From positions 1-25,931 of the forward strand of contig CAMWKC010000004.1 in the NCBI GenBank assembly GCA_947174735.1: DNA of 25,931 nt. Direction: 5' to 3'. Shown piece by piece: positions 2,123 through 25,931 of the stretch. Numbering within the stretch: the stretch's first letter is position 1; every line of letters starts with the position of its first letter. The notes under the pieces were generated by a model. That model was given only the letters and a program-made list of their open reading frames with translations, was not told where the DNA came from and did no database searches. This stretch comes from an uncultured Porphyromonadaceae bacterium. GTDB taxonomy: Bacteria > Bacteroidota > Bacteroidia > Bacteroidales > Muribaculaceae. The position numbers and the translations under genes were made by a program.

Positions 2123-2154
2123 AATATTGAAATTGAAATGTGGATTTATTTTCT

Positions 2155-4832: not shown

Positions 4833-4840
4833 TAAATTTG
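4833..4840 (+). promoter_or_regulatory. -7 box of the cobU operon promoter
   Basis: TAAATTTG is a perfect match to the Bacteroidetes -7 box TAnnTTTG. The expected -33 position (about 4809-4812) reads TAAG, a poor match, so the promoter may need an activator. Transcription would start around 4845, at the beginning of the riboswitch P1 stem. Confidence 0.55.
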
Positions 4841-4843
4841 CCG

Positions 4844-5063
4844 TGCAATATGGTGAACGGACAGGTGTTGTCCGTGAGAGGGAACCCGGTGTGAATCCGA
4901 GACAGTACCAGCTACTGTAAGGCCCGATGAATACAGAACAATCACATCTTTATGGTCACTGCACACAATGTGTGGGAAGGCCGTTCGGATTGTTCGGGCT
5001 AAGTCAGGAAACCTGCCTTTTGCAATACATGAGAGTTATTTCTGGATTAAAATAAGATTACTC
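4844..5063 (+). promoter_or_regulatory. Cobalamin riboswitch (B12 aptamer with L5-L13 kissing loop)
   Basis: A complete aptamer can be folded by eye: P1 TGCAA 4844-4848 with TTGCA 5020-5024; hairpin CGGACA/TGTCCG 4858-4874; conserved core with GGGAAC, GGTG and GAATCC at 4880-4899; P5 ACAGTA/TACTGT 4902-4918 with loop CCAGC; GCCCGA 4922-4927 with TCGGGC 4994-4999; GAACAATC 4936-4943 with GATTGTTC 4988-4995; CACAC/GTGTG 4962-4974 followed by GGGAAGGCC; and the B12 box AAGTCAGGAAACCTGCC at 5001-5017. Downstream, TTATTT/AAATAA (5036-5041, 5050-5055) forms P13, whose loop carries CTGG (5042-5045), complementary to L5 CCAG (4908-4911). Cobalamin binding should favour the kissing loop and repress the cobUTSC operon, probably at translation, since P13 ends at or near the cobU ribosome-binding site and no terminator follows. 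Confidence 0.95.
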
Positions 5064-5071
5064 AAACGACA

Positions 5072-5599
5072 TTGAAAGCAAAAGTCATAATGGTGACAGG
5101 AGGGCAACGCTCCGGGAAGAGTGTGTTTGCAGAAAATCTGGCCCTCAGCCTGTCTGAACGCCCGGTATACTTAGCTACGGCAGAAATCTTCGATGAGGAG
5201 ATGCGTCGCAGAGTCACGATTCACCGTCAACGCAGGGAAAAGCGATGGCACAATCTTGAAGAACCTTTACATATTTCCGCCATTACCCTGAATGAAGAAG
5301 ATACAGTGCTGATTGACTGTCTTACTCTGTGGGCCAGCAATTGGTTTTTCAGATATAATGAGAATATTACACAGGCGCTCGAAACAATGCAGCATGAGCT
5401 GAAGCAACTGTTCAGTCATAATATTACCCTGATTATTGTAACTAATGAAATAGGTCTCGGCGGTGTAAGCGAAAACGCAACCCAGCGCCACTTTACTGAT
5501 CTGCAAGGCTCAATCAATCAGTTTGTAGCCTCAGCAGCTGATGAAGTATATCTGACAGTATCCGGTATTCCAGTAAAAATAAAATCTGATAAACCATGA
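5072..5599 (+). CDS. cobU: Adenosylcobinamide kinase / adenosylcobinamide-phosphate guanylyltransferase
   Basis: Bifunctional enzyme that phosphorylates adenosylcobinamide and then transfers GMP from GTP to give AdoCbi-GDP, the first step of nucleotide loop assembly. Visible motifs: P-loop GGQRSGKS (residues 10-17 from the TTG start), His51 in IHRQRR near the usual GMP-accepting histidine, VLIDCLTLW as the Walker B-like strand, and the conserved block [16 protein letters not shown]. Length 175 residues fits the family. The start is uncertain: TTG at 5072 keeps the usual hydrophobic residues before VTGG, while the ATG at 5090 would begin [11 protein letters not shown] and sits further from the riboswitch P13 hairpin. 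An in-frame stop at 5048 rules out any longer form. It is the first gene of the riboswitch operon and overlaps cobT by 4 bp (ATGA). Confidence 0.95.
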
Positions 5600-6633
5600 A
5601 ATTCAATATCAAACCCATTGACCATCAAATCGAACCACAGATTACAGACAAAATCGATAACCTGACAAAACCGAAAGGTTCACTTGGAAGACTGGAAGAA
5701 TTAGCTAAAAAGATATGTCTGATTCAACAAACCCTTACACCTGAGTTACGCAGTCCGCACAATGTACTTTTCGCAGCAGATCACGGTATACTCGAAGAGG
5801 ATGTAAGCGTATCTCCTAAAGAAGTGACATGGCAGCAGCTCAGTCACTTTTCCAAAGGAGGAGCAGGTATTAACTTTCTCTGTGAGCAACACGGATTCCG
5901 GTTAATCTTAGTAGACGCCGGTACAGACTATGATATACCTTCCGGACATGGTATCATAGATATGAAAGTACGCAAAGGCACCAGAAACTTTCTTCATGGT
6001 CCGGCTATGACTATCGCAGAGATGGAATTATGCATAGAGCGTGGTGCGAAGGTAGTAAAAGACATTATTGCTGCTACTGACTGCAACGTAATCAGTTTCG
6101 GTGAAATGGGTAGCGGCAATACCTCACCCTCGGCAATCTGGATGCACCTCTTCACCGGTATCGAATTGAATAAATGTATCGGAGCCGGCGCAGGTCTTGA
6201 TAATCCCGGAGTGAGACATAAGGCTGAAGTGCTTTCGGCAGCCTTAGCCAACTATCAGGGTGAAGATGATGCAAAGTCAAAAACAGCATGGTTCGGAGGC
6301 TACGAAATGGTTATGGCTATGGGGGCGATGCTACAGGCCGCCGAATCGGGTATGCTGATAATCGTAGATGGCTTTATAATGACTGCTGTCATACTTGCAG
6401 CTTCACAATTTTATCCTCATATACTCGATTATGCCGTATTCGGACATCAGGGAGATGAAAGCGGTCACAAACTCATGCTCGAAGCAATGAAGGTCAGAGC
6501 TCTGCTCCATCTTGATCTCCGCCTCGGCGAAGGTACAGGAGCTGTATGCGCTTATCCTATACTCGAGTCAGCTGTCAGAATGATAAACTGTATGGATAAC
6601 TTCCAGTCAGCGAACGTCACTAAATATTTCTGA
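5596..6633 (+). CDS. cobT: Nicotinate-nucleotide:dimethylbenzimidazole phosphoribosyltransferase
   Basis: Activates the lower-ligand base to its alpha-ribotide phosphate using nicotinate mononucleotide, in the cytoplasm. The 345-residue length is typical. Motifs: [15 protein letters not shown] near residues 23-37, FAADHGI followed by [25 protein letters not shown] (often GEMGIGNT in the family), [14 protein letters not shown], and LGEGTGA with Glu312 matching the catalytic glutamate. It starts inside the cobU stop and ends with TGATG shared with cobS, so translational coupling is likely. No bluB or bza genes for making the base are in the window, so which lower ligand the cell uses is unknown. 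Confidence 0.95.
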
Positions 6634-7382
6634 TGAAACATATTGCTGCAGCTCTCACGTTGTTTACCCGTCTGCCGGTGTGGCGTCTGACTGATATTCC
6701 CTCTTCATATTACTCTACCGCTGTAGTATGCTGGCCTCTGACAGGCTGGCTTACAGGTGGCCTTACAGGTCTGACACTTTACACTCTGTCTTTTGTGTTA
6801 CCACTGTTGCCTGCTGTGGTATCAGCTATCATCATACGGTTGTTACTCACAGGAGCACTGCATGAAGACGGTCTGGCAGATTTCTGCGACGGATTCGGAG
6901 GAGGACATGATAGAGAAGGAATACTCCGGATAATGAAAGATTCCCATATCGGAACATACGGAGTAATAGGTCTGATATGCTATTTCCTTCTTACATGCTC
7001 ACTTTTAGACTCACTTCCTGCAGAAACAGGAGTTATGGCTATCTTCGCAGCTGACCCGTTTGCAAAATGCTGTGCCTCGCAGTTGACCAATATACTGAAC
7101 TACGCACGTCCGGAAGGTGCAAAAAACAGAATATCATATTCACGTATGACCATTGGGCAACTTACTTTTAACCTGCTTTCAGGCATTCTACCGATTACTC
7201 CTATAATAATTTATTCACCTCTGACTGCCTGTGCGGTAATATTTCCGTTAACTGCATTGTTCTTTATGATAAAGATAATGAAACATCGCATAGGAGGCTA
7301 TACCGGTGACTGCTGCGGAGCCACTTTTCTTATCTGTGAAGCAGCTATGTTAACCGGTATCGTAATATTAACAGCAATATGA
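6633..7382 (+). CDS. cobS: Adenosylcobinamide-GDP ribazoletransferase (cobalamin synthase)
   Basis: Integral inner-membrane enzyme that joins AdoCbi-GDP with alpha-ribazole (phosphate) to make cobalamin (phosphate). The 249 residues are mostly hydrophobic, with about six membrane segments. The conserved acidic signature is clear: TGALHEDGLADFCDGFGGG at residues 73-91 (His77, Glu78, Asp79, Asp83, Asp86), followed by RIMKDSHIGTYGVIGL. It shares one base with the cobT stop and overlaps cobC by 4 bp, consistent with a single riboswitch-controlled operon. Confidence 0.95.
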   Translation: MKHIAAALTLFTRLPVWRLTDIPSSYYSTAVVCWPLTGWLTGGLTGLTLYTLSFVLPLLPAVVSAIIIRLLLTGALHEDGLADFCDGFGGGHDREGILRIMKDSHIGTYGVIGLICYFLLTCSLLDSLPAETGVMAIFAADPFAKCCASQLTNILNYARPEGAKNRISYSRMTIGQLTFNLLSGILPITPIIIYSPLTACAVIFPLTALFFMIKIMKHRIGGYTGDCCGATFLICEAAMLTGIVILTAI

Positions 7383-7909
7383 GACTTATATTAATCCGTC
7401 ATACTTCTGTTGCCGTACCCAAAGGGGTATGTTATGGACAGACTGATGTACCGCTTGCCGAAAGCTTCACAGAAGAAGCCACAGCAGTGAAAGAACGTCT
7501 TTCAGGCTATAGATTTGATAAAGTATTTTGCAGCCCGCTTTCAAGATGTGTGAAATTAGCGGAATTCTGCGGTTATCCGCAAGCTATAAAAGATGCCAGA
7601 CTGAAAGAACTTAATTTCGGTGAATGGGAAATGATGCCATACGATAAAATAACAGATTCTAAGTTACAGGAGTGGTTTGATGATTATATCAATGTGGCCC
7701 CTCCGGGAGGAGAAACTGTGCTCGAACAACAGAAACGTTTGCTAAGCTTTATCGAAGATCTGCGCAACGAGTCACCGGAAACGACTGTAGGCATTTTTAC
7801 TCATGGCGGTATTCTTATTAACGCTCTCGTAGCGTTAGAAGAAAAATCATTTGAGGAAGTCTATAACAATATTCCTCCCTACGGAGCTATAATAGAAATA
7901 GACATCTGA
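7379..7909 (+). CDS. cobC: Alpha-ribazole / adenosylcobalamin phosphatase (histidine phosphatase family)
   Basis: Histidine phosphatase of 176 residues that removes the 5'-phosphate from alpha-ribazole phosphate or adenosylcobalamin phosphate. The catalytic core is intact: Arg7-His8 in LIRHTSV (the phosphate-accepting His), Arg56 in SPLSRC, Glu82 in NFGEWE and His142 in FTHGGIL. The segment GVCYGQTDVPLA is typical of CobC. The function assignment rests on this motif plus its place as the last gene of cobUTSC, since the family as a whole is broad. Its last 23 bases overlap, on the opposite strand, the end of cbiB. Confidence 0.9.
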   Translation: MRLILIRHTSVAVPKGVCYGQTDVPLAESFTEEATAVKERLSGYRFDKVFCSPLSRCVKLAEFCGYPQAIKDARLKELNFGEWEMMPYDKITDSKLQEWFDDYINVAPPGGETVLEQQKRLLSFIEDLRNESPETTVGIFTHGGILINALVALEEKSFEEVYNNIPPYGAIIEIDI

Positions 7910-8822
7910 CAGCGAAAGTAAGAAGAATCATACAAAACTCTGTTCTACGGTTGACACACACAGCCTGTGAAACATCGGAATAGGTAAAGTCCCGTTCAGT
8001 CACGCCTATATACGGTTTGTAAACACTTTCTCCGAAATAATCGTGCGTACCTCCGAAGCGGCAATCAAGCAGACCGGCTAAAGCAGCCTCCGGATAGCCG
8101 CTGTTGGGACTCGCGTGCTGTGGACCGAAACGCAACACAAAGGAGAACAAATTAAATCTGCCTGATACAAGTATCATCAGCCAGGCAGTGAGACGTGCAG
8201 GTACATAGTTAGCCAAATCATCTATTTTTGCCGCTATCATACCGAAGCTGCGGTAACGTTCGTTTCGGTAGCCTATCATAGAATCAAGAGTATTTATCAT
8301 TTTATAGGCCATCATACCCGGCACACCGAGCAAAGCATACCAAAACAACGGAGCTATTACACCATCACTAAGATTTTCTGCCAGAGTTTCAAGAGCTGCC
8401 GTACGTATCTCCTGTGCTGACAGACAAGCTGTATCACGGCCGACAATACGTCCCACCTGTTGTCGGCCTTTCTCAAGTGAAATCTCAGCAGCCTCAAATA
8501 CCATTCTTACTTCTCTGATAAGAGTAGTACCGGCAAGACAGAAAAATATCAATATTGCCTGTAAGCCCACATCAAACCATATATTAAAGGCAGCAGCAGT
8601 CTTAAGAAATAACCATGTCAATAGATAGACACCAGATATAAGTATGATAGCTGTCAGACCTCCTTTTAAGCGCCGATGAGCACCCTTATTAAGTTTGTGT
8701 TCAAAAAAACTTATAGTTTTTCCAAACCAAACAACAGGGTGAGGCAGCCAGGCCGGATCACCAAGACATATATCCAATACCCATCCTATCAATAAAGGTA
8801 AAATTATGATAACGAAATCCAT
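7887..8822 (-). CDS. cbiB: Adenosylcobinamide-phosphate synthase CbiB
   Basis: Inner-membrane enzyme that attaches (R)-1-amino-2-propanol phosphate, the CobD product, to adenosylcobyric acid. Length 311 residues fits the family. Features: hydrophobic N-terminus followed by GDPAWLPHPVVWFGK (the typical GDP...HPV motif), membrane segments near residues 57-75 and 85-103, RIVGRDTACL, ETLAENLSDGVIAPLFWY, and YKMINTLDSMIGYRNERY. It starts inside the end of cobD (19 bp overlap), so the two partners are likely co-translated. It is the last gene of the long minus-strand operon and its 3' end overlaps that of cobC. No terminator is visible behind it. Confidence 0.95.
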   Translation of the reverse strand: MDFVIIILPLLIGWVLDICLGDPAWLPHPVVWFGKTISFFEHKLNKGAHRRLKGGLTAIILISGVYLLTWLFLKTAAAFNIWFDVGLQAILIFFCLAGTTLIREVRMVFEAAEISLEKGRQQVGRIVGRDTACLSAQEIRTAALETLAENLSDGVIAPLFWYALLGVPGMMAYKMINTLDSMIGYRNERYRSFGMIAAKIDDLANYVPARLTAWLMILVSGRFNLFSFVLRFGPQHASPNSGYPEAALAGLLDCRFGGTHDYFGESVYKPYIGVTERDFTYSDVSQAVCVNRRTEFCMILLTFAVRCLFLL

Positions 8823-9817
8823 TCTTTTAAAGCGTTAATAAGCAGATTATTTTCTTCATAACTTTGTGCCGCGACTCTGAAATGCCGAGGAGATAGCCCT
8901 TCGAAATTCGAAGCATCACGAATCAGCAGACCATGCCTGTCAATAAGCCATTGTTTCAATGCTGAGGCTGTACTGCCAGGAAGACAACCCAATATAAAAT
9001 TACAATCGGTAGTTTCTGTCTTTATACCCATAACAGTCATAGCCTTAGCTATACGCACTGCTTCTGAATGTAATATCGAGGCATCTATTTTATAACTGTC
9101 CGAATGTTCCAGAAGATAATGTGCTGCCTGTATAGCCATAGAATTAACTGACCAAGGCATACGTAATACTCTCAGCCGATTTATAATATCTGCAGAACCT
9201 ATAGCATATCCTATCCTCAGCCCGGGTATGGTAAACTGCTTGGTCAGAGACTTCAGCATAACTATATTATTACGCTTTATCACATCATCTACAGTCAGAA
9301 CCTCACTTACAGAGTAATCAGCATAAGCCTGGTCAACAACAAAAAGAGTATCCTTAAAGCGATCAGCAGTAGCTAAAAGTTCCGTACGGTCAAAAATGTG
9401 ACCGTTCGGATTATTAGGATTACACAGCCATACCATCTGCATATCTCCGCTAACCTCACTTAATACCTTAATAAACTTGATAGTATGTAAGAATATGCTA
9501 CAGGAATCCTGATACTCTCTGAAGGTCGGTATAATTATCCCTGATTTCCCCTCTCTGTAAGCATGAGCAAGAAGATATATAGCTTCAGTGGCACCATTAG
9601 TGACAATAATATTGTCTGTTGCCACACCGTACTTATTAGCCAACTGCTGTTCCACACTCCGGGGTACGGGTTCCGGATAGTTTCTGAATATATCTCCGCA
9701 GGCGAAAAGATGTTTTAACAGACCTGTATGGTCAACTGCCTGCGGAATATTGGTACTGAAATTTACTTTAATCTTATCTCCGTAGAGAAATAAGTCATCA
9801 CCATGTCCTTCAATCAT
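8804..9817 (-). CDS. cobD: Threonine-phosphate decarboxylase CobD
   Basis: PLP enzyme of the class I/II aminotransferase fold that decarboxylates L-threonine O-3-phosphate to (R)-1-amino-2-propanol O-2-phosphate. From the chosen ATG at 9817 it has 337 residues. Motifs: HGDD...VNFSTNIP at the N-terminus, WLCNPNNPNG, VDQAYADYS and the PLP lysine Lys193 in LKSLTKQFTIPGLRIGY. An upstream in-frame ATG at 9853 would add MIYLGFIKLCCV, deep inside cobQ; the 9817 start is preferred because the protein then begins MIEGHGDD, as CobD proteins do, and overlaps the cobQ stop by only 8 bp. Its substrate, threonine phosphate, needs a threonine kinase, and no PduX homologue is present in the window. Confidence 0.93.
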   Translation of the reverse strand: MIEGHGDDLFLYGDKIKVNFSTNIPQAVDHTGLLKHLFACGDIFRNYPEPVPRSVEQQLANKYGVATDNIIVTNGATEAIYLLAHAYREGKSGIIIPTFREYQDSCSIFLHTIKFIKVLSEVSGDMQMVWLCNPNNPNGHIFDRTELLATADRFKDTLFVVDQAYADYSVSEVLTVDDVIKRNNIVMLKSLTKQFTIPGLRIGYAIGSADIINRLRVLRMPWSVNSMAIQAAHYLLEHSDSYKIDASILHSEAVRIAKAMTVMGIKTETTDCNFILGCLPGSTASALKQWLIDRHGLLIRDASNFEGLSPRHFRVAAQSYEENNLLINALKEWISLS

Positions 9818-11279
9818 CACACAGCATAATTTTATAAAGCCGAGGTATATCAATATATTCTCTCAACCAGTCGGCCAACAGATCATATTGCTGCTGCCGG
9901 AAGGTCGGAAAATCAAATTCAGTTTTCATTCTGTCATGCCTGAAAGGTTGCAACAGAAAGTCAACAACCGGAGCATTATCAAGAAGACCATGTACATAAC
10001 TACCGAAACAACGTTCGTCAACCATACACCCTTCTTGGGTACCGTCACCTAAAGTTATAAACGGCCGGTCGGTCACAGTACGGCCGACATGAATCTCATA
10101 ACCCTTACATAACCGGTTATCGTCCATAAATCTGAATTCAGTCTGGCGTGTTGTTTTATCAGCTGTCATTACAGTTCTTACAGGTAATAATCCCAATCCT
10201 GGCAAACTCTCAATCTCCCCCTCAACACCTAATGAATCTGTTACCTCCTCGCCCATAATCTGATAACCTCCGCATATTCCTATTACAGTTTTTCCGGAGC
10301 AACGTGCTTCACATATAGCCTTAGCCATACCTCTTTTCCGCAAGTCGAGCAGGTCGGAAAGTGTATTCTTACTACCCGGTATAATTACTATATCGGCTTC
10401 CTCAAGATCGGCAGGCGACTCAGCGTAGAACAGATTAACTTCCGGATGACGTTCAAGCACATTGAAATCGGTAAAGTTGGAGATATGTTTCAGCAAAACC
10501 ACAGCAATATTCACTTTATCTCTGACAGCATTTCTGTCTTTCACAGCAAGTGAGACTGAATCCTCTTCATCAATATGTATATGTGAGGCCATAGGCACCA
10601 CACCTAATACCGGCACACCACATATTTCTTCCAATAATTTTCTACCCTCTTCAAACAGACGCAGATCACCGCGGAATTTATTGATTATAATTCCTTTTAT
10701 CCGCTTACGGTCCTTCTCAGGCTGAAGCATTACCGAACCGTAAATACTTGCAAACACACCACCACGGTCAATATCAGCTACAAGAATCACTTTCGCACCG
10801 GCATAAGCAGCCATTGACATGTTTACAATATCTCCGTCGCGTAGATTGAGTTCAGAGATGCTACCGGCTCCTTCGAGCACTATCGGATTAAACCGCGCAG
10901 CCAGACGGTCAAAAGCCGCATGAGCAATCTTACGCAATTCCTCCTTACCTTCCTTACGGAAATACTCATAAGCAGATTTATTACCGACAGGCCGACCTTC
11001 AAGCACTACCTGAGAGGTATGTTCGCCTGAAGGTTTCAGAAGCACAGGATTCATATCGGTCGAACAGTCTATACAGGCAGCCTCAGCCTGTACAGCCTGC
11101 GCACGTCCGATTTCCAGTCCGTCAGGGGTGGCATACGAATTAAGAGCCATATTCTGAGCTTTGAAAGGTGCCGGATTGTAACCGTCCTGCCGGAAAATCC
11201 TACACAGTCCGGTAGCTATAAGACTCTTGCCGACATCACTGCCGGTGCCGGCCAACATTACAGGTGATAACCGTTTCAT
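9810..11279 (-). CDS. cobQ: Cobyric acid synthase (glutamine-hydrolysing)
   Basis: ATP-dependent amidotransferase (also called CbiP) that amidates carboxylates b, d, e and g of adenosylcobyrinic acid a,c-diamide, using ammonia from glutamine. The 489-residue protein has an N-terminal synthetase domain beginning LAGTGSDVGKS (modified P-loop, residues 9-19), then PFKAQNMALNSY, EGAGSISELNL, and VILVADIDRGGVFASIYG. The C-terminal glutaminase domain shows the nucleophile Cys336 in GICGGYQ and His430 in YVHGLLDN. It overlaps the adenosyltransferase gene upstream by 4 bp (ATGA) and cobD downstream by 8 bp. Confidence 0.96.
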   Translation of the reverse strand: MKRLSPVMLAGTGSDVGKSLIATGLCRIFRQDGYNPAPFKAQNMALNSYATPDGLEIGRAQAVQAEAACIDCSTDMNPVLLKPSGEHTSQVVLEGRPVGNKSAYEYFRKEGKEELRKIAHAAFDRLAARFNPIVLEGAGSISELNLRDGDIVNMSMAAYAGAKVILVADIDRGGVFASIYGSVMLQPEKDRKRIKGIIINKFRGDLRLFEEGRKLLEEICGVPVLGVVPMASHIHIDEEDSVSLAVKDRNAVRDKVNIAVVLLKHISNFTDFNVLERHPEVNLFYAESPADLEEADIVIIPGSKNTLSDLLDLRKRGMAKAICEARCSGKTVIGICGGYQIMGEEVTDSLGVEGEIESLPGLGLLPVRTVMTADKTTRQTEFRFMDDNRLCKGYEIHVGRTVTDRPFITLGDGTQEGCMVDERCFGSYVHGLLDNAPVVDFLLQPFRHDRMKTEFDFPTFRQQQYDLLADWLREYIDIPRLYKIMLCDD

Positions 11280-16678: not shown

Positions 16679-17859
16679 ACTGCTTTTAAAATAGTTATGC
16701 TATTATGGGCATCTACTTTCAGAATATGTGTGGCCACAACGCTACCTCCGCACCTGCCTACAGCCTCTATAAATGTCTGGCAACTGTCTGCACTTACAGA
16801 ATTAAAAACTATCACACCGCCGGGACATAGAACAGTGTAAATACGTTCTACCATTTCATCCAGTCTACCGCCATGCCCACCGATGAACACAGCCTCCGGA
16901 GCAGGATAACCGCTTAGGTCACAGGTCATAAAGTCAGCTGTTACACCCTTAATACCCGGCGCACCGAATCTCCGGCAATTTTCTTCGAGTAAATGCTTCG
17001 ATTCTTCGCGACGTTCAAAAGATATTATTTCAAGATGAGGAAACTGCAACCGTGCCTCTATAGATACCGAACCGGTGCAATAACCTATATCCCACATTAT
17101 GGTCCTGTTGTAAAGGTCAAGCATCGAGAGAGAAACCAAACGCACAGGCATTTTGGTTATCATATTACTTCGACCTTCAAGATGGGCAAACTGATTTTCA
17201 GGAATACCGAAAAATCTTTGTCTCTGTTCCGTCATCTGTAATATCACGCAGTTAGGAGAATCAAAATCTTTTTCAGTCGCCTCGGAAAGTGCCATAGTTC
17301 TGACTCTTTCTGTTTCATTACCAAGACACTCTCCCACATGCATTATATAATTATCATAGCCATAGTATAAAAGACGCTGCGCTATAGCGGCAGGCGTTTT
17401 CTTCTTATCGGTCAGTACTCCGATGACAGAACGGTTTTCTATTAATGCGGTATCAAGATTTTTCCATGGACGTCCGGTGACAGATACACTAATCATTTCA
17501 TTATATGGCAACAATAGTCTGTGAGCCAAAAGCTGAAGAGAATTGAATGATGGATAAACCGTTATCCGTGCCGTTGGAAATTCGCGCTGAAGTGTTGTGG
17601 CATAACCGTAGAACAGTGGATCACCCGAAGCGAACACCACAACGTCCGGTAAAGAAGCATACCGGATAAATACTTTTTCAAGCGGTACCGTCACATCAAT
17701 CCATTCAGCTCCCGGAGGTAACAGGGATTCGACAATCTGATGATGACGTTTACCGCCCGAGAATACTTTTCCGCACATTATTATACGGCGTACCTCCGGA
17801 GAGAAAAACTGATTGTGACTATCGGAAATTCCGATTACAATAAAATGCTGCTCAGACAT
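16675..17859 (-). CDS. CbiE-CbiT (CobL-type) fusion: C5/C15 methylation and decarboxylation
   Basis: A 394-residue CobL-like protein acting on (cobalt-)precorrin-6B/7. Residues 1 to about 210 form the CbiE tetrapyrrole methyltransferase: VVVFASGDPLFYGYATTL at 73-90, YPSFNSLQLLAHRL, and SVTGRPW. Residues about 215-394 form CbiT, a Rossmann-type SAM methyltransferase that also decarboxylates the acetate side chain: MWDIGYCTGSVSIEA at 255-269, VFIGGHGGRLDEM, and LCPGGVIVFNSV. The SAM loop reads DIGYCTG where most CbiT proteins have DIGAGTG. The gene overlaps the cobJ-cbiC stop by 8 bp and the next gene by 4 bp. Confidence 0.93.
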   Translation of the reverse strand: MSEQHFIVIGISDSHNQFFSPEVRRIIMCGKVFSGGKRHHQIVESLLPPGAEWIDVTVPLEKVFIRYASLPDVVVFASGDPLFYGYATTLQREFPTARITVYPSFNSLQLLAHRLLLPYNEMISVSVTGRPWKNLDTALIENRSVIGVLTDKKKTPAAIAQRLLYYGYDNYIMHVGECLGNETERVRTMALSEATEKDFDSPNCVILQMTEQRQRFFGIPENQFAHLEGRSNMITKMPVRLVSLSMLDLYNRTIMWDIGYCTGSVSIEARLQFPHLEIISFERREESKHLLEENCRRFGAPGIKGVTADFMTCDLSGYPAPEAVFIGGHGGRLDEMVERIYTVLCPGGVIVFNSVSADSCQTFIEAVGRCGGSVVATHILKVDAHNSITILKAV

Positions 17860-19255
17860 CTCTTCCGGGTTTTAATAATTTAGCGTCAGGCCAGCACAGT
17901 ATAGAGTTTACCAGTGTAGCAGCTAAATTACTGCCTCCTTTGCGTCCTTCAACAATGATTTTGGGTATCTCATAAAAAGGTTTGACCATGTGCTTGCTCT
18001 CACAAACATGTACAAATCCTACCGGAGCAGCTATAATACCACAGGGACGGGCTTTATGCTGACGTATAAGTGTACATAGCTCCATAAGTGCGGTAGGGGC
18101 GTTACCGAACACATACAATGCGTCCGGATGTTCGGCAACTGCAAGACGTATGCCCGCCTGTGTTCTTGTGATACCATGCTCTTTGGCAAGTTCAGTAGTT
18201 TTAGAATCATTGAGGTAGCACTTCACTTCAATACCGAGTCTCTGAAGAGCACCTTTCCTTATACCTGCGGCAGCCATTGTCACATCAGTAACAATGGTAC
18301 GTACACCCCCGGCAGTAAGAGCTGCATAAATACGTTCTACCGCCTTACTGTCAGCTCTGACTATATTTTCCATATCGAAGTCGGCAGTGGTATGTATGGC
18401 ATGAAGCATAGGCCATTTGAGATCAAGCGGAATATCAGGATCTGACATTTCTTTTTCGATGGTACGGAAACTCTCTATCATGATTGCCTGTCCCGGAGCA
18501 TTTTCAGAAGTCTCTTCATTTTTATAATAACCACGCGGAGTAATCATAAAGTCTTTCCACTGATAAGTTTGTGAATTACCTATCAACACAACCGTAAACA
18601 TATCCACATCTTCGGGATCAAAATCTTCAAGAGTTGTCAGTTTTATTTCCTCACCGTCTCGTCCGGCCTGACGCACATAACCTACGGGAGTCTGTGGATT
18701 ACGGATTTCAAGAAAGATTTCTTTAAGACGATATAGTTCCCAATAACGTCCGTTGCTTTTAGGATTATAAACCGCAGTTACGAAATCGGCCTCGGCTGCT
18801 GCTCTGATACGTTTTTCAATCATAGCCCACGGAGTCATAAGGTCACTTAATGATATTACACAGAAGTCATGACCCATAGGAGCCCCTAAAAGAGAGGCAG
18901 CTTTCTGAAACGCACTTATGCCCGGAATAACCTCAACCTCAATATCCGAACCACGCTGGCGCAACATCTCATAGACAAGAGGTGCCATACCGTATATACC
19001 GCAGTCACCTGAGCTTATGACACATACATCACGTCCGCTTTCCGCTATTTCAAAAGCTTTCTCAATACGTTTCTGCTCCTGCTTCATGCCGTTCTGCACT
19101 ATCTCAGCACCTTCTTTGAGAATTGAAGAGATAAACGGTATATAGTATTTATACCCTACTATTATGTCGGCCTGTCTGAGTATCTCGACAGCATGTAGCG
19201 TCATGTCGCCCTGACTTCCGGGACCAATACCTATTATTGTTATTTTAGATTTCAT
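17852..19255 (-). CDS. CobJ/CbiH-CbiC fusion: precorrin-3B C17-methyltransferase and precorrin-8 methylmutase
   Basis: A 467-residue protein when started at the ATG at 19255. Residues 1-245 are a CobJ/CbiH methyltransferase that contracts the ring: ITIIGIGPGSQGDMTL, SSGDCGIYGMAPLVYE, IPGISAFQKAASLLGAPMGHD, TAVYNPKSNGR. Residues about 250-467 are CbiC/CobH, which moves the C11 methyl to C12: MLHAIHTTADFD (His288 the likely catalytic residue), VTDVTMAAAGI, FGNAPTALMEL, PVGFVHVCESK. An in-frame ATG at 19390 would lengthen the protein by 45 residues that have no family similarity and overlap the PepSY gene, so 19255 is preferred. Here the joined steps are not consecutive, and CbiC makes the final isomerisation to cobyrinic acid. 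Confidence 0.93.
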   Translation of the reverse strand: MKSKITIIGIGPGSQGDMTLHAVEILRQADIIVGYKYYIPFISSILKEGAEIVQNGMKQEQKRIEKAFEIAESGRDVCVISSGDCGIYGMAPLVYEMLRQRGSDIEVEVIPGISAFQKAASLLGAPMGHDFCVISLSDLMTPWAMIEKRIRAAAEADFVTAVYNPKSNGRYWELYRLKEIFLEIRNPQTPVGYVRQAGRDGEEIKLTTLEDFDPEDVDMFTVVLIGNSQTYQWKDFMITPRGYYKNEETSENAPGQAIMIESFRTIEKEMSDPDIPLDLKWPMLHAIHTTADFDMENIVRADSKAVERIYAALTAGGVRTIVTDVTMAAAGIRKGALQRLGIEVKCYLNDSKTTELAKEHGITRTQAGIRLAVAEHPDALYVFGNAPTALMELCTLIRQHKARPCGIIAAPVGFVHVCESKHMVKPFYEIPKIIVEGRKGGSNLAATLVNSILCWPDAKLLKPGRDV

Positions 19256-19302
19256 ATCACAGTTTCTTATCGACGCTTTTATTATTGTCAAAATGAATCG
19301 AA

Positions 19303-20616
19303 CTATACTTTTTTCCGACAACACAGAGACTTTACAGATAATACCGTACCTGTAGCTACGATTACCATTCCTCCGAGCAAAAGTATCCATAGAAATAAAT
19401 CATGAAGCCATTTTACACGGTTTATGCCCGGTATATTCATAGTGTGCAATACTCTGTAACATATAGCCTGCGCCTTAGCTTTACGGTCCATTACCCTATA
19501 GAAACCCTCAACGTTCCAGTAGACAGTGTAATTCTCAGTTTCAGCTTCATAACCGGGACAGTCATGCTGCCCATAAAAGACTCCGTTATTTATACTTTTT
19601 ACAGACATCACAGACTCACCGGTCTGCCATGCTATAACTTTACCCATATTACCGGGTGAAAAATCCAGCGGTGTGCGGTAATTGACAGGTAGCAGATATT
19701 TGTCTTCGCCAGATGTTACTTTCACAGCCGGTAAAGGATTGGCACTGATAGTAACCACTCCGAAGGTCTCAGGCAGAAGAGAAAGGTCAACATCGCTCTT
19801 AGCAATCATAGCCGACGGATGCGGAAGTGGTCGTGATTTCATTATCCAGTCAGGAATCTTAGCAAGCGACATCATACCGCTGAAAATAAAAGCCAGCATA
19901 CTGAGACCGAAAAACAGACCCCAGGAATAATGCCACCGCCACGACTTACGCGGAAATATTCTTAACCGCCGTGTACGTAACAGAAATCTTACAGCAATAA
20001 TAAGACCGAATATTACCGAAACGGTACACAGACCTGACATCCATATTACTGTATTATGCCACAATTCAGAATCGCGACGCAAAGGAGTTATATATACATA
20101 ATGCGGTAAAGCTCCTATCCATGCCCAGCGTCGGCCACTCAGCGTATTATGCTGTAACACCTCACCGGTCTGAGAAGACACGTATGTGTACGACTTATCA
20201 ATACCTGTTATCCGGTAAATCGGCAGATGCTTCATCAGTCTGTTAAAAGGAATCCATTTATCTATATCACTGAGTGTATCGACTTTTTCAATTTCTGTAC
20301 CGAAACTGCTCTCTATGATTTGGAGGTCATCAAGAGTCGGTGTATAACCTCCTATAAGTTTCCTGTCTGCCTTAATCAGAAGATGTCTGCCCGAAAATGA
20401 CATACGGCAGTCTGAAAAAGTGTCGGGCACTTCCTGCCAAAGCTCTATAAGCTGTGAGGCATCTGCCTCCGCCACCGGTGTAGTGGCGGGGGTCAGATGC
20501 GGAAAAGGATGGTACAGCATTACCGCCCCCGAAACATACCATGCTATAAACATGAGTGCGAGCGGAATGCCGAACCACTTATGACAGCTGTAGAGTATAT
20601 TGAATATCCTCTTCAT
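19303..20616 (-). CDS. PepSY-associated transmembrane protein (putative inner-membrane reductase)
   Basis: A 437-residue inner-membrane protein of the PepSY_TM type. It begins with the family pattern SCHKWFGIPLALMFIAWYVSGAVM (His12 at the start of helix 1) and has further helices near 190-213, 230-251 and 405-428. The segments between helices 1 and 2 and between 3 and 4 are probably periplasmic PepSY domains (e.g. YVSSQTGEVLQHN). Helix-flanking histidines (His12, His172, His187, His229, His391, His405) could hold b-type heme. Relatives such as FoxB/PiuB-type proteins work beside siderophore receptors, probably reducing or releasing metal in the periplasm. It lies 9 bp after the TonB-dependent receptor gene and 47 bp before cobJ-cbiC. 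The exact reaction and substrate are unknown. Confidence 0.82.
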   Translation of the reverse strand: MKRIFNILYSCHKWFGIPLALMFIAWYVSGAVMLYHPFPHLTPATTPVAEADASQLIELWQEVPDTFSDCRMSFSGRHLLIKADRKLIGGYTPTLDDLQIIESSFGTEIEKVDTLSDIDKWIPFNRLMKHLPIYRITGIDKSYTYVSSQTGEVLQHNTLSGRRWAWIGALPHYVYITPLRRDSELWHNTVIWMSGLCTVSVIFGLIIAVRFLLRTRRLRIFPRKSWRWHYSWGLFFGLSMLAFIFSGMMSLAKIPDWIMKSRPLPHPSAMIAKSDVDLSLLPETFGVVTISANPLPAVKVTSGEDKYLLPVNYRTPLDFSPGNMGKVIAWQTGESVMSVKSINNGVFYGQHDCPGYEAETENYTVYWNVEGFYRVMDRKAKAQAICYRVLHTMNIPGINRVKWLHDLFLWILLLGGMVIVATGTVLSVKSLCCRKKV

Positions 20617-20625
20617 TGGCTACTC

Positions 20626-22923
20626 TCAGAATGAGTATCCCACACTTACTTTCCAGTTTATATCCTGTCCGGGAATCATCTGATTACCCAGACACGATAC
20701 ATTATAATGACGGTTAAAAAGATTATTTACCGCCACTTTATATTCCACACCACAGTGCATCTTATAACGTAATGCTATATCAGTAAGGAAGAAAGAATCC
20801 AGCTTTATGCCGTTTGCCAGATTAGTGTACACAGCATCCTGATAAGTCAGTGACAAAGCCGCCCCAAGTCCTTTGACAGGTCCGTGAGACACCTCATAAT
20901 CACCTGTGAAGAAGAACTGGTTTTCGGGTATGTAAGTATAATGATTACCACGGTCTGTATTAACTTGTACATAGTCGTTGGGAGCTATTTTACCTACACG
21001 GGCATTGGTATATGCATAACCGGCCGAGAACAGAAAATCACGCCACGAATAGCTCAGATCCACGTCAACACCCTGCGAGTGCATACGGCCTACCTGACCT
21101 CTTACGGTCTTTACAACATTATCTTCCTCAAGAGTTCCGAGGGAAGTCACCACATTATTTTTATGGATATAGAAGTAAGAGGCATTGGCGGTAAAACCAT
21201 TCCAATCATATTTAATACCGCCTTCTACCTGATAACCCTTTTCAGGAGAAAAGACCTCACCGCCGTCATTGGGATAATAGCGTTTGCCGTCAGCATCAAT
21301 ATAGACTGTGTTATCATTGTAAACCGTATTATTGGGCTTAAAGAATGATCCTACAGAAGCATACACAGAAAGCTCCTGAACAGGCAGGTACACCACACCG
21401 GCACGATACGAGAAGGCATGATTTACTATACTGCTGTAATCACTTCCGGCCGGATGAGTATAGTTTCGGTCCCCATCCTTGAGCTGTACTACAGCTGAAC
21501 GGTACTTATAGTAATCATAACGTCCGGAAAGCATGAACTTGAATTCCTTACATACATCAACTACATCCGACAGATAGACCGACTGCGAGAGTCTGTCGCT
21601 AATCGATACTCTCGACAGCGTAGCGAACATGGCACCACACGAATACGGATGATAAACCGGAATGTGTGAATCTACACCGGGACCTGAAAACTTGCCTCCT
21701 CCGAATGACGGACGGTGAAGATAGTTTACTGCATAGCCTCCGAAGTAAGTATGTTTTACCGAACCGGTATAAAAATCTCCGGTCAGTTCGAGCTGATTTG
21801 AGTAGTGGTAGGCTATGTGATTGAAAGCTAACGGCGATGAGTTAGTCAGAGTATCAAGATTGATATATGTCTTTTTTCCATCACGTTCATAATAATGTTT
21901 GTATATCGGCTCATCACTTGTGAGATAACTCATTGACTCAGTACTCTGATAATTTATATTATCGTAGCGGAACATAGCCACATCACGTAGCTTGACAGCC
22001 GGACTGAAGACATGTTCATAACGCAACTGTACATCCTGGGTGCGGTTAATCAGAAAGTCCGATTCATTGTTGTAACGTGCCTTTCGGTTAAGGCCGGGCA
22101 ACTGCTGAAACTGAGAAAGATACAGTTTGCCGTCGGTTGAATATATATTGTACGGCATGAGTGTCGGCAGACCTGTATCTGTACCGTAACGGTCATTAGC
22201 AAAATAATAAGTCAGCTGTAGGAAGTCCCTGGCTGTAAACCAACCGGATATTGTACCATAGAGAGACAGACGACGTTCCATATTACTACGCCAGCCGTCA
22301 GTCGAGGAAGTATAAGCAGATGCATAGTAGTTGAACGGTCCGACAAGTTTGCCTGACATACCGAACATTGCCTCACGTCCGTGCCACGACGACAGGCCGA
22401 GACGTGTGTAAAGATGGCGTTCAGCCGTGGGTTGCCGACGGGTTATATTGAGCACACCCCCCACTACAGACTGTCCATAAAGAGCCGAGGCAGGCCCACG
22501 TAACAGTTCAACACTTTCAACGTTCGACAAATCGTGCATCGGCATCGAGGTTATAAACGAACGTTGGTCAGCAACTCCGTCAGTGGCAACAAGCTGATTG
22601 GAAAAGCCACGGATATAAAATTCCTGAAAGCCTCCATAAGTGGTACGTGTCTTGACAGAAGGCAGAAAGCGTGTGGCACCTACAATATCAACAATGCCTC
22701 GGTTCTCAAGAGTCGAGTTGTCAACACGGGTCATATTAACCGGCAGAAATTTCTCATCTACTCCGTATGGAAGCATGGTGACACGCTTGTCCTGACTACT
22801 CACTATCTCTACTCCACGTAGATTCACCACCGAGTCAGTATGTTCGACAGCCTGCAAAGGTGTCAGACCTGCGCACAGGCAACCTGAAAAGGTCAACACT
22901 GTGCAGAAAATCTTTGATTGCAT
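20626..22923 (-). CDS. TonB-dependent outer-membrane receptor, siderophore-receptor type
   Basis: A 765-residue outer-membrane beta-barrel with signal peptide (to about residue 25) that would import a large or scarce ligand using TonB energy. A possible TonB box lies near residues 38-43 (GVEIVSS). The plug domain contains EFYIRGFSNQ (101-110), DGVADQRSF, and VESVELLRGPASALYGQSVVGGVLNITRR (135-163), the arrangement of FhuA/FoxA-like siderophore receptors. The chain ends in aromatic Phe (VSVGYSF), the usual barrel-insertion signal. It lacks the N-terminal carboxypeptidase-like domain typical of SusC proteins and has no SusD partner. Operon context suggests a corrinoid, cobalt chelate or related metal complex; the ligand cannot be told from sequence. 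Confidence 0.92.
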   Translation of the reverse strand: MQSKIFCTVLTFSGCLCAGLTPLQAVEHTDSVVNLRGVEIVSSQDKRVTMLPYGVDEKFLPVNMTRVDNSTLENRGIVDIVGATRFLPSVKTRTTYGGFQEFYIRGFSNQLVATDGVADQRSFITSMPMHDLSNVESVELLRGPASALYGQSVVGGVLNITRRQPTAERHLYTRLGLSSWHGREAMFGMSGKLVGPFNYYASAYTSSTDGWRSNMERRLSLYGTISGWFTARDFLQLTYYFANDRYGTDTGLPTLMPYNIYSTDGKLYLSQFQQLPGLNRKARYNNESDFLINRTQDVQLRYEHVFSPAVKLRDVAMFRYDNINYQSTESMSYLTSDEPIYKHYYERDGKKTYINLDTLTNSSPLAFNHIAYHYSNQLELTGDFYTGSVKHTYFGGYAVNYLHRPSFGGGKFSGPGVDSHIPVYHPYSCGAMFATLSRVSISDRLSQSVYLSDVVDVCKEFKFMLSGRYDYYKYRSAVVQLKDGDRNYTHPAGSDYSSIVNHAFSYRAGVVYLPVQELSVYASVGSFFKPNNTVYNDNTVYIDADGKRYYPNDGGEVFSPEKGYQVEGGIKYDWNGFTANASYFYIHKNNVVTSLGTLEEDNVVKTVRGQVGRMHSQGVDVDLSYSWRDFLFSAGYAYTNARVGKIAPNDYVQVNTDRGNHYTYIPENQFFFTGDYEVSHGPVKGLGAALSLTYQDAVYTNLANGIKLDSFFLTDIALRYKMHCGVEYKVAVNNLFNRHYNVSCLGNQMIPGQDINWKVSVGYSF

Positions 22924-22954: not shown

Positions 22955-23995
22955 TTAATTATACATCAAGTGTGAATTATATCTGATCTGTTCCACAGGG
23001 ATGGCTAAGTGGCATCCTGTAACCGAAGAAGTAGCATGATCGGCCTGTACAGTAATCTGCAACGGCATGGATATATCAAGCAAAGGACGAAGTATCCTAT
23101 TGTCTATGTCATGCAGAATTCTGACTTTTTCTATGGGATTACGTGCATGTGAGGCTTCGTCGGGAGCTTCGATATGCAGCAGCACAAAATCATGTACATC
23201 AAAGGCTTTTATGGCAGCCTGAAGCTTAGCTTCATAATCGGTTGATGCGTCACCTGTGGCACCATTGACCTCAATTACTTCCATACCCACAGCCTTTGCT
23301 ATTCCTTTTACAACAGGCACAGCTGTCACAACTGCGCCGGCCATAGTAAAAGCCGGGATAAAAGCCCGTCCGGCTCCCCATACCGCTATTCCGTTAATCT
23401 CTCCGACAGCGGGAAGCGAACGTGCTTCCGTTACAAATCTGTTTATAGTGTCTACCGTTTTTTTATCTGTACCACTTACTTTCAGAAAATCAAGTGGTAA
23501 ACCGACAACTTTATGAGGCGGTATGGAATAAATCTGAGCAGGTGTATTATGTATCACTAAAAGACTACGGTAACTTCCTGTATCATACACCGTAAATCTC
23601 TCGTCAGCGATTGTTCTCAACATTTCGACGTACGCCTTCGTCTCCACCGTTCCGGGATTAGCAGCAGAATGTGAAATTAGCTGTCGGCCGTCATGACTTA
23701 TCAGATTACAGCGGAGACATAAGTCAACAGGTTCCGGTTCTATTCCGTTACCTAACGCTTCAAGCCACGCACGTGAACAGAAATCGGGAGTGACCTGATA
23801 ACCGAGTTGTGTCAGCAGGGCCGTATCAGTGGCCGGTTCCACCCCTTCCGGTACACTACACACATATTGATGGCTTCCGTGCTCGCGCATAAAGGCCAAA
23901 GCATCCATATCTGCACATTGAGCAGGTGTTCTGTCTCCGAGGACTGCGACAGGTTCATCGTCCATACCGTCTATAATTATCAGCAGTCTTTTCAT
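22955..23995 (-). CDS. Archaeal-type (ApgM-like) phosphoglycerate mutase family protein, possible threonine/homoserine kinase
   Basis: A 346-residue cytoplasmic member of the alkaline phosphatase superfamily, closest by motif to archaeal cofactor-independent phosphoglycerate mutase (COG3635), though shorter than the usual ~400 residues. Seen: metal-binding Asp9 in IIIDGMDD; PATDTALLTQLGY (54-66) with Thr56 where a Ser/Thr nucleophile is expected; WGAGRAFIPAF; VVKGIAKAVGMEVIEVNGATGDASTDYEAK; LLHIEAPDEASH (Asp279, His283); and ADHATS (Asp319, His320). Relatives in Bacteroidetes have been reported to act as homoserine kinases rather than mutases. Inside a B12 operon, with cobD present and no PduX seen, phosphorylation of L-threonine is an attractive role, but this is inference. 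It starts 3 bp after the ABC ATPase stop. Confidence 0.8.
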   Translation of the reverse strand: MKRLLIIIDGMDDEPVAVLGDRTPAQCADMDALAFMREHGSHQYVCSVPEGVEPATDTALLTQLGYQVTPDFCSRAWLEALGNGIEPEPVDLCLRCNLISHDGRQLISHSAANPGTVETKAYVEMLRTIADERFTVYDTGSYRSLLVIHNTPAQIYSIPPHKVVGLPLDFLKVSGTDKKTVDTINRFVTEARSLPAVGEINGIAVWGAGRAFIPAFTMAGAVVTAVPVVKGIAKAVGMEVIEVNGATGDASTDYEAKLQAAIKAFDVHDFVLLHIEAPDEASHARNPIEKVRILHDIDNRILRPLLDISMPLQITVQADHATSSVTGCHLAIPVEQIRYNSHLMYN

Positions 23996-23998
23996 ACG

Positions 23999-25006
23999 TT
24001 ATTTTTTAAGTGTCAGAAGACGGTCAACCATATCAAGCAATTGGGCTATGGAAGTGACAGAGTAACCATTTATATTGTAATTTTCACCGGAAGTGTCGAT
24101 GGCTATATCCTTGTTGCCGTCAGGAGCGGCATAAATACCACGGCGAGCCAGAGCCTTACGCACCATATTGAAACGAGGTCCGGCACCGTTGAGACATACC
24201 GACTCGTTTAGCTCATGACATATCTTGAAAAGACCGCTTTCCATATCAAATATAACTCCGTCACAACGGAAATACTGGCTCATATCTCCGTTAAGAGCAA
24301 GGTCTTCAGGAGTACCGATTGTCACGCCATGCGGTTTATCAATAAGCCATACTCTATCGGCAATCTGAAGGGCAAGTTCCAAATCGTGAGTTGACAAAAA
24401 CACAGTCTTATTTTTCTCACGTGCCAGACGCTGAAGTAGTTGCATTATCTCGACTTTACTCGGATAATCAAGGAAAGCTGTCGGCTCATCAAGAAATATC
24501 ACAGGAGTTTCCTGTGCAAGCGATTTGGCAATCATTACTTTCTGCCGTTCGCCGTCACTGAGGGTTTGAATCATTCTGTCACGCAGATTACCGATGTTAA
24601 CCAGCGAAATAGACTCGTTTACTACCATACGGTCATATTCACTCATTCTACCCCAGAAGCCGGTGTAAGGACTGCGTCCCATACCTACCAGTTCTTTTAC
24701 TGTCATGTTGTTGATATTTAACCGTTCGGTAAGCACAACTCCTATGACCTTGGCCAGTTCGGCATCGGTATACTCAGAAAGTAATTTTGATTCAACAGTT
24801 ATACTACCGGCAATCGGAGGCAGAAAAGCAGTGAGTGTTTTCAGCAAGGTGGACTTTCCGGCACCGTTAGGTCCTAACAGACAAGTAAGCTCTCCGGAAT
24901 ACAAAGCAGCGTTTATATCGCGGGTAATTACTATGTCGCCTTTCTTACTTCTGTAACCGGTCACAAGATTATCCACACGTATGGTTTCCTTATACTGTCC
25001 TTTCAT
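23999..25006 (-). CDS. ABC transporter ATP-binding protein, FecE/BtuD family, with C-terminal extension
   Basis: A 335-residue ATPase that would drive the FecCD-type permease encoded just upstream (4-bp ATGA overlap). Seen: Walker A GPNGAGKST at 45-53, Q-loop region around TERLNINNMTVKELVGMGRSP, signature LSDGERQKV at 149-157, Walker B VIFLDEP at 169-175 and H-loop His207 in STHD. The pattern fits importers of cobalamin, heme or ferric siderophores (BtuD/HmuV/FecE). Such ATPases usually have about 250-260 residues; here residues about 260-335 form an extra domain (GAGPRFNMVRKALARRG ... YSVTSIAQLLDMVDRLL) of unknown function. Context favours a corrinoid or cobalt-complex substrate, but iron compounds are possible. 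Confidence 0.9.
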   Translation of the reverse strand: MKGQYKETIRVDNLVTGYRSKKGDIVITRDINAALYSGELTCLLGPNGAGKSTLLKTLTAFLPPIAGSITVESKLLSEYTDAELAKVIGVVLTERLNINNMTVKELVGMGRSPYTGFWGRMSEYDRMVVNESISLVNIGNLRDRMIQTLSDGERQKVMIAKSLAQETPVIFLDEPTAFLDYPSKVEIMQLLQRLAREKNKTVFLSTHDLELALQIADRVWLIDKPHGVTIGTPEDLALNGDMSQYFRCDGVIFDMESGLFKICHELNESVCLNGAGPRFNMVRKALARRGIYAAPDGNKDIAIDTSGENYNINGYSVTSIAQLLDMVDRLLTLKK

Positions 25007-25931
25007 ACCTCGTTCCTTCTCTTATCAAACAGTACCCACATCACAACCGGAGCACCTATCAATGCTGTTACCGAATTAACCGGTAAGGCTCCCTCAAACC
25101 CGGGTAACCGGGCAATAAGATTACACAGCAGAGCCAGCGAAGCACCTCCTAACATGGATGCAGGAAGTATCACAGCATGATTAGATGTTTGAAAAAGTCC
25201 ACGGCATATATGAGGCACCGCGAGACCAAGAAAAACCACCGGACCGCAGTAAGCTGTGACTACTGCAACCAAAATACCGGAACTGGCAATCACAAGTAAA
25301 CGAGCCCGTTTAATATTAAGCCCTAAGTTACGTGCATAGGAATCACCGAGAAGGAGGAGATTAAGAGTTTTTATCAGAAAGAACGACATGGGCAGCAGTA
25401 TACACATCAGAATAATGAATACCATAGTCTGACCGCCTGACACTCTTGCAAAGCTACCGAGTCCCCATATCACGTATGCACGTATATCTTCCTCAGCACT
25501 GAAGAATTTTAGCACTCCTATTATAGCGTTGGCTATGTAACCTATCATCACACCCATAATAAGCAGTGTTACATTTCCTCTTACCTTACCGGCTACAAAC
25601 GCTATAAGTGCCATTATAAGCAACGAACCGAAGATAGCCGAAAAAGTTATTGTAACCTCTCCGATAACTCCGAGTTTACTCAGAGCCACCCCACCGATAC
25701 TACCTGACAGCAACACCACAAACGCAACACCCAGACTTGCACCTGAACTGATACCTAATACCGATGGTCCAGCCAGCGGATTGCGGAATACTGTCTGCAT
25801 CAGAAGACCGCTCACTGCCAATCCGGCACCGGCCATAGCCGCAGTGAGAGACTGCGGCAGACGCGACTTCATAATGATATTGGTCCATATCATATTGTCG
25901 GCCCCACGTCCCGACAGTATATCTATAATAC
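25003..25931 (-). CDS. FecCD-family ABC permease (5' end cut by window edge)
   Basis: Inner-membrane permease of the BtuC/FecCD/FhuB family. The reading frame stays open to the right edge (IIDILSGRGADN precedes the internal Met at 25893), so the true start and first membrane helix lie outside the window; 308 residues are present out of a usual 330-350. Family hallmarks: SRLPQSLTAAMAGAGLAVSG, then LMQTVFRNPLAGPSVLGISSGASLG, and GPVVFLGLAVPHICR near the C-terminal third, followed by GALPVNSVTALIGAPV. Eight or so hydrophobic helices remain. With the ATPase downstream it forms half of an uptake system; the substrate-binding protein is not in the window and would be expected just beyond the edge. 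Confidence 0.92.
   Translation of the reverse strand, partial: IIDILSGRGADNMIWTNIIMKSRLPQSLTAAMAGAGLAVSGLLMQTVFRNPLAGPSVLGISSGASLGVAFVVLLSGSIGGVALSKLGVIGEVTITFSAIFGSLLIMALIAFVAGKVRGNVTLLIMGVMIGYIANAIIGVLKFFSAEEDIRAYVIWGLGSFARVSGGQTMVFIILMCILLPMSFFLIKTLNLLLLGDSYARNLGLNIKRARLLVIASSGILVAVVTAYCGPVVFLGLAVPHICRGLFQTSNHAVILPASMLGGASLALLCNLIARLPGFEGALPVNSVTALIGAPVVMWVLFDKRRNEV

Follow-up and report, generated by a model that had tools for sequence, protein, structure and literature searches.

Which enzyme supplies the L-threonine phosphate for CobD in gut bacteria whose B12 genes show no PduX-type kinase? This question is raised by a stretch of 25,931 nucleotides (hereafter, the window) at the start of contig CAMWKC010000004.1 from an uncultured bacterium of the Muribaculaceae, in which a B12 gene cluster contains at 22955..23995 a gene for a COG3635-type metalloenzyme. 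In this survey, the predicted B12 pathways throughout this group of gut bacteria lack an assigned source of threonine phosphate. A reading of the window made without database searches (the sequence-only reading) had proposed the protein as the missing threonine kinase. We consider it fairly probable that the protein and its close relatives, designated the short clade, are B12-dedicated L-threonine-phosphate-forming phosphotransferases feeding CobD. This remains the best reading of clade, gene order and co-occurrence and preserves the main idea of the earlier proposal; by family mechanism, ATP would not be the obvious donor. Genomes and loci are cited by G and L numbers.

A short COG3635 subfamily and its conserved residues

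That a phosphoglycerate-mutase-like protein lies among the B12 genes is borne out by the open reading frame (ORF), by matches above cut-off to PF10143 and PF01676 in a Pfam scan, and by TIGR00306 (apgM) as the best NCBIfam model; with 346 amino acids (aa), the protein is also, as had been stated, shorter than the family members of about 400 aa. It scores 242.3 bits against TIGR00306 (curated cut-off 320), 236.6 bits against the proposed homoserine kinase model TIGR02535 (cut-off 446.3), and 112.6 bits against PhpG (NF038358), far under the cut-off of 545; a control copy from a threonine (thr) operon, L131, reaches 544 bits with TIGR02535, above cut-off. The GHMP kinase domain PF00288 had no match in the product in the Pfam scan (E 0.001). 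The Pfam domains over cut-off together with the matching predicted fold place the protein in the alkaline-phosphatase/Metalloenzyme superfamily, and it is a member of a short COG3635 subfamily. Comparison with the copy of G289 (L118), to which it is 92% identical, gave nonsynonymous and synonymous distances (dN, dS) of 0.040 and 0.231, a ratio of 0.17, the corresponding ratios for the ring genes of the same two genomes being 0.13 (cbiET) and 0.08 (cbiGF). This ratio and the linkage to B12 genes in ten of ten short-clade genomes argue for more than chance: 22955..23995 is a real gene under purifying selection.

In two phylogenetic trees, the B12-linked copies group in clades of their own, distinct from those of thr operons, a separation that the sequence-only reading had named as a way to check its proposal. 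Support by the Shimodaira-Hasegawa-like approximate likelihood ratio test was 97 for the short group (41 rows), 98 for 13 thr-operon copies and 99 for a second B12-linked group (4 rows) in a tree of 90 rows, which took in 32 of 63 short database proteins, and 99 (25 rows), 77 (13 rows) and 100 (18 rows), respectively, in a tree of 82 rows, likewise based on a sample of database proteins. A single origin of both B12-linked clades is compatible with approximately unbiased tests (p 0.058 and 0.178), and two separate recruitments were dropped as a claim because these tests fail to reject it.

The residues D279, H283, D319, H320 and H329 are invariant in all groups aligned (short clade 72/72), and so is D9 wherever the row has no gap (63 of 72 short-clade rows, the other nine being gapped there); from the superfamily, we take these six residues to be metal ligands. 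Together with a serine or threonine at the predicted nucleophile position 56 in all 72 rows, their conservation agrees with the superfamily assignment. Position 56 is Thr in 57 and Ser in 15 of the 72 short-clade rows, and Ser in 47 of 47 of the second clade. Thr56 in the PATDTA block, to which the sequence-only reading had drawn attention, is therefore correctly identified, but the altered chemistry read from it was abandoned, since both residues occur within the short clade. Phosphopentomutase entries with T85 variants were among the structure matches, which fits a threonine nucleophile elsewhere in this fold, T85 presumably having that role. Ser282 and Gly327 occur together in 69 of 72 short-clade and 47 of 47 second-type proteins, in 1 of 13 thr-operon copies, in 2 of 111 other long proteins, and in three of five other copies (G140, G098, G183; all CbiB-positive and outside B12 clusters in the stretch seen). 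Gly327 alone is found in 72/72 short-clade members vs Arg or Lys in 97 of 111 long homologues. As positions picked after looking, S282 and G327 are a lead to what may set the B12-linked clades apart from most thr-operon copies.

Distribution and gene order

The short subfamily was found in one Bacteroidales family. Proteins scoring at least 499 bits occur in 7 of 297 genomes of this family, all seven among the 72 with CbiB (Fisher 4e-5), and in an order-level sample of 393 genomes the window's own genome is the sole one at this threshold. The window's genus was represented by 97 genomes, in which COG3635, CbiB and threonine synthase were looked for. The short type was detected in seven of them and as a contig-edge fragment in G326, the second type in G165, G300, G309 and G312, where in four of four loci it shares a contig with CbiB and immediately precedes cobU. 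All 12 genus genomes with a B12-linked copy belong to the 28 that are CbiB-positive, and the co-occurrence expected for an enzyme feeding CobD and CbiB was found, CbiB being present in 10/10 short-clade and 4/4 second-clade genomes. Threonine synthase over cut-off occurs in 24 genus genomes, each with a COG3635 copy of about 400 aa beside ThrC (24/24). Among the CbiB-positive genus genomes, a B12-linked copy is present in 11 of 16 without threonine synthase vs 1 of 12 with it (Fisher 0.002); these Fisher tests ignore kinship, and with a genome completeness of 72-100%, some genes may be hidden.

The order btuD-X-cbiHC, with X designating the enzyme gene, is found in L112, L113, L116, L249 and L250, X-cbiHC at a contig edge in L251, btuD-X-tonB-PepSY-cbiHC in the window and L118, btuD-X-cbiP in L117, and X-cbiP-cobD-cbiB, with no transporter in the stretch, in L115. 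Where btuD is present, the spacing ranges from a 4-bp overlap to 44 bp; the 3-bp gap previously given for the window is correct (btuD ends at 23999, against 23995 for the enzyme gene). A cobalamin riboswitch leads the co-directional run holding the enzyme gene in L118 and L112; the upstream end of the window's btuC/btuD/enzyme run is cut off by the window edge.

Some further copies and neighbours were noted. A second B12 cluster of G119 carries a copy that lacks about 150 internal residues (L114:8932-9522), the intact copy being on contig L113. Directly upstream of the second-type copy, a PHP-domain protein is encoded in two of four loci (L123:8628-9440, L247:5362-6201). A third COG3635 paralogue of about 275-300 aa is encoded at L124:639-1541, where it adjoins polysaccharide-export-like genes (by eye), with similar ORFs in L126, L128 and L133; the nucleophile region and DH motif of the L124 protein look lost, and a catalytic action like that of the other copies is improbable for it.

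Proposed supply of threonine phosphate and its alternatives

The ring-synthesis marker CbiC went undetected in six of 14 genomes (G180, G047 and all four with the second type), and cobD, cbiB and cobU-T-S-C stay near the enzyme gene in the CbiC-less genomes, which points to a role in the late aminopropanol/nucleotide-loop stage. With CobU, CobT and CobC accounting for the other phosphate steps, threonine phosphorylation is the one late-stage phosphate step left to fill. The enzyme would phosphorylate the hydroxyl group of L-threonine, and the resulting L-threonine O-3-phosphate would be decarboxylated by CobD to (R)-1-amino-2-propanol O-2-phosphate for CbiB. Two divalent metals would hold the nucleophile Thr56, which may take the phosphate from the donor and pass it to threonine; the donor might be ATP, or else a phosphate ester (e.g. 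phosphoenolpyruvate, phosphoglycerate, phosphoserine). By analogy with the family mechanism, a ping-pong transfer of this kind would be easier to reconcile with a phosphomutase fold than classical kinase action with ATP. The predicted function is a sister to that of ThrB2, which is encoded in thr operons and predicted to phosphorylate homoserine. The earlier argument that threonine is a methyl group larger than homoserine was mistaken, as the two are isomers (see also the available text of PMC10714395).

The kinship to ThrB2 raises the alternative that the protein is the displaced homoserine kinase of the organism, now residing in a B12 locus. TIGR02535 is among its nearest named families, nine of ten short-clade genomes are without a thr-operon COG3635 copy, and homoserine dehydrogenase is encoded in G180, G248, G289 and G168, with a weaker match in G000, so that some members of the clade have a supply of homoserine. 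Threonine synthase over cut-off, however, is found in none of the ten short-clade genomes, the sub-cut-off exceptions being a divergent protein beside thrA in G168, a paralogue in G047, and in G326 a thr operon with a 94-aa ThrC piece at a contig end, missed by the hidden Markov model count. G326 carries both a thr-operon and a B12 copy and is the only one of the 12 genus genomes with a B12-linked copy to have a thr operon; no threonine synthase was found in the other 11. Homoserine dehydrogenase had no match in G119 (99% complete), G047 (87%) and second-clade G165 (99%), in a search that left out G310, G330, G326, G300, G309 and G312 (thrA was seen in G326). The absence of threonine synthase from 11 of 12 genomes and of homoserine dehydrogenase from two 99%-complete genomes makes a homoserine kinase role unlikely, and so do the separate clade, the location in B12 loci (10/10) and the lack of an adjacent threonine synthase gene; on balance, we rate this alternative as very improbable. 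The objection that this might be the only homoserine kinase of the organism, anticipated by the sequence-only reading, thus fails in most genomes. Separately, in eight loci (L193-L200) the gene directly after thrA encodes a divergent protein like threonine synthase (35-44% to ThrC of L131), and the two are not separated by a gene for homoserine kinase.

A role as phosphatase or phosphomutase, with a B12 intermediate (ribazole, cobinamide or cobalamin phosphate) or a salvaged cobamide as substrate, would be consistent with the alkaline-phosphatase fold, the full set of predicted metal ligands and the transport genes among the neighbours. We regard it as unlikely, because the ribazole phosphatase CobC is present over cut-off in the window, and beside the late genes in relatives, and because it leaves the link with absent threonine synthase unexplained. 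Another step tied to corrinoid uptake, e.g. the modification or release of a transported substrate, is suggested by the close spacing behind btuD; it is a distinctly unlikely explanation in view of the L115 copy, which lies with cbiP in a stretch free of transporter genes, and of the second clade, which lies directly ahead of cobU. Least credible is a true phosphoglycerate mutase lying here by chance: the protein belongs to the apgM family by fold and model, but its score is below the apgM cut-off, Gly327 replaces the Arg or Lys of most long homologues, and the short type was found only in CbiB-positive genomes and B12 loci.

Several observations weigh against a supply of threonine phosphate by this enzyme, besides the homoserine supply of some short-clade members. 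No cobalamin riboswitch was detected in six of eight short-clade loci or in the four second-clade loci (stretches examined), and one is present in L245 of G189, a genome without the enzyme. The S282/G327 pair also occurs in thr-operon copy L134, from a CbiB-negative genome, and in the two long homologues mentioned above. Threonine synthase and COG3635 both gave no match in five CbiB-positive genus genomes (G107, G185, G189, G236, G285), and 11 other CbiB-positive ones have the thr-operon copy only, some of these also carrying the third paralogue of about 280 aa. In the genus g18, CobD and CbiB are present but COG3635 proteins were not detected, and each of the 16 genomes searched has only two GHMP matches, which are sized like galactokinase and IspE. 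The family must therefore have a further source of threonine phosphate; no substitute was established in the five genus genomes or the sampled g18 genomes. Finally, ThrB2 itself is not biochemically proven, BT2402 having failed to rescue an E. coli thrB strain (available part of PMC7311316).

As the sequence-only reading had it, the ORF list and family scans of the window show no PduX-like ORF, some ORFs lying outside the scans. PduX is a GHMP kinase. A GHMP homoserine kinase (ThrB) over cut-off was found in none of the 22 genomes searched, and 13 GHMP matches were obtained in seven short-type genomes: the eight scanned comprise six IspE and two galactokinase-like proteins, and the remaining five are frames of 378-414 aa, galactokinase-sized and judged by size alone. 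No pduX is annotated after the pdu genes of E. coli E24377A, and the detection of PduX by PF00288 is without positive control. The absence of PduX is weak evidence for the enzyme's role, because B12-competent g18 relatives without COG3635 likewise have no more than the two GHMP matches given above, and the argument that it proves the case was dropped, the gap being more widespread than the enzyme gene. The lengths of CobD ORFs gave no clear sign of a kinase-CobD fusion, in the absence of a search aimed at BluE or an archaeal fused kinase-CobD.

HAD-IB proteins resembling SerB and ThrH are encoded beside B12 genes at L152:4309-4953 (+), L151:16369-16983 (-), L164:10605-11228 (+) and L178 ~10561-11136 (-), in genomes with no COG3635 match. 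ThrH/SerB-like HAD genes lie ahead of cobU in G185 and G189 (without COG3635 and threonine synthase), a spot that matches the second-type COG3635 gene, and beside cbiB in G090 and G154 (without COG3635, with threonine synthase over cut-off). Judged from sequence, such a protein may stand in for the enzyme of the window. At the CbiB loci of relatives, a first count gave HAD genes in 4 of 15 COG3635-negative vs 0 of 40 positive loci; with 20 more loci, none with HAD, the count is 4/32 vs 0/43 (Fisher 0.03), and the link to COG3635 absence is weakened by the enlargement. Only L164 of the 22 g18 loci (L164-L169, L288-L303) has the HAD protein. More speculatively, and with a doubtful though not negligible chance of being correct, one B12 slot in this family would be filled by a set of phosphotransferases that includes no ATP kinase of the classical type, i.e. 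the two COG3635 clades and the ThrH/SerB-like HAD, each forming threonine phosphate with a phosphate-ester donor and arising by repeated recruitment of homoserine-phosphorylating types, with the G282 to S and R327 to G switch in both clades.

A new enzyme family for threonine phosphate, if confirmed, would change which of these gut bacteria count as B12 producers or remodellers. It would also offer a way into ThrB2, for which the homoserine kinase role rests, in the available text of the sources cited below, on genetic rather than biochemical support; a paralogue kept beside CobD where threonine is not made points to a shared chemistry of amino-acid-hydroxyl phosphorylation and makes a simple assay and the exchange of a few positions possible.

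Features of the window and comparison with known systems

The features of the B12 cluster are listed in the table. Downstream of the enzyme gene follow the genes for the TonB receptor and the PepSY-like protein and then cbiHC; the PepSY-like protein had no match in an NCBIfam scan.

Table. Enzyme gene and B12-related features of the window, with the basis of each assignment
Feature	Position	Strand	Basis or remark
COG3635-type metalloenzyme, predicted L-threonine-phosphate-forming phosphotransferase	22955..23995	minus	346 aa, ATG start, ORF list
Thr56 codon, predicted phosphoryl-accepting nucleophile	23828..23830	minus	conservation; role inferred from fold family
Stretch with predicted metal ligands D279, H283, D319, H320, H329 and clade-marking S282, G327	23009..23161	minus	alignment
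btuD-like ABC ATPase	23999..25006	minus	ORF list and family scans; ends 3 bp upstream of enzyme gene
btuC-like permease, at window edge	25003..25893	minus	best family BtuC, below cut-off
TonB-dependent receptor	20626..22923	minus	31 bp downstream of enzyme gene; best family below cut-off
PepSY-like membrane protein	19303..20616	minus	named by eye; similar ORFs in relatives
cbiH-cbiC fusion	17852..19390	minus	start probably over-called; relatives 467-469 aa
cbiP, cobyric acid synthase	9810..11279	minus	named by eye
cobD, threonine-phosphate decarboxylase	8804..9853	minus	TIGR01140 best family, 244.2 bits, below cut-off 290.55
cbiB, adenosylcobinamide-phosphate synthase	7887..8822	minus	PF03186 over cut-off
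cobU, cobT, cobS, cobC, late-stage genes	5072..7909	plus	cobU, cobC over cut-off; cobT, cobS by eye
Cobalamin riboswitch ahead of cobU	4833..5034	plus	RF00174, 82.4 bits

Beside the cluster, at 1265-3096, lie genes for metallo-beta-lactamase-fold and serine-beta-lactamase-like proteins (by eye), which are also present in G289 (L160). In L174 (6638) and L187 (6806), ORFs of 671-672 aa match CbiP, a length that would suit a cobC-cbiP fusion.

A literature search, mostly outside subscription papers, found no paper tying a phosphoglycerate-mutase-type protein to both cobalamin and threonine phosphorylation, nor one tying it to threonine and homoserine kinases in Bacteroides. The enzymes reported to make L-threonine phosphate are PduX of Salmonella and BluE of Rhodobacter (PMC6249242, available text), BluE being described as a PduX homologue there and as non-orthologous in the accessible part of PMC8123684. 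The window protein has the same predicted product, feeding CobD, but unlike PduX no GHMP domain match. Like the phosphoserine:homoserine phosphotransferase ThrH, it is predicted to be a phosphotransferase rather than an ATP kinase acting on an amino-acid hydroxyl, ThrH differing in being a HAD protein; a ThrH-like HAD, CD0241, has been proposed as a phosphoserine:threonine phosphotransferase (PMC10714395, in the text available). PhpG (CMP-5'-phosphonoformate--3-phosphoglycerate phosphonoformyl transferase) is an annotated group-transfer enzyme of the same wider family, with other substrates and a model cut-off that the window protein falls far below. The best structural and sequence matches are archaeal proteins of the cofactor-independent phosphoglycerate mutase type, PH0037 (2zkt) and 3kd8/3idd of T. 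acidophilum, with which it shares 23-28% identity and from which it differs by the lack of the C-terminal part and the absence of a glycolytic context. Also among the closest systems is ThrB2 (TIGR02535; BT2402), which is required for growth without threonine and for which TIGRFAM curators proposed a donor such as phosphoenolpyruvate, according to the available parts of PMC7311316 and PMC9026213. Both proteins have the COG3635 fold family and the predicted metal ligands in common, and ThrB2, too, is predicted to phosphorylate an amino-acid hydroxyl. ThrB2, however, has about 400 aa, is encoded in thr operons beside thrC, scores above its own model cut-off (L131) and mostly has G282/R327, whereas the shorter window protein is B12-linked, carries S282/G327 and lies 210 bits under the TIGR02535 cut-off.
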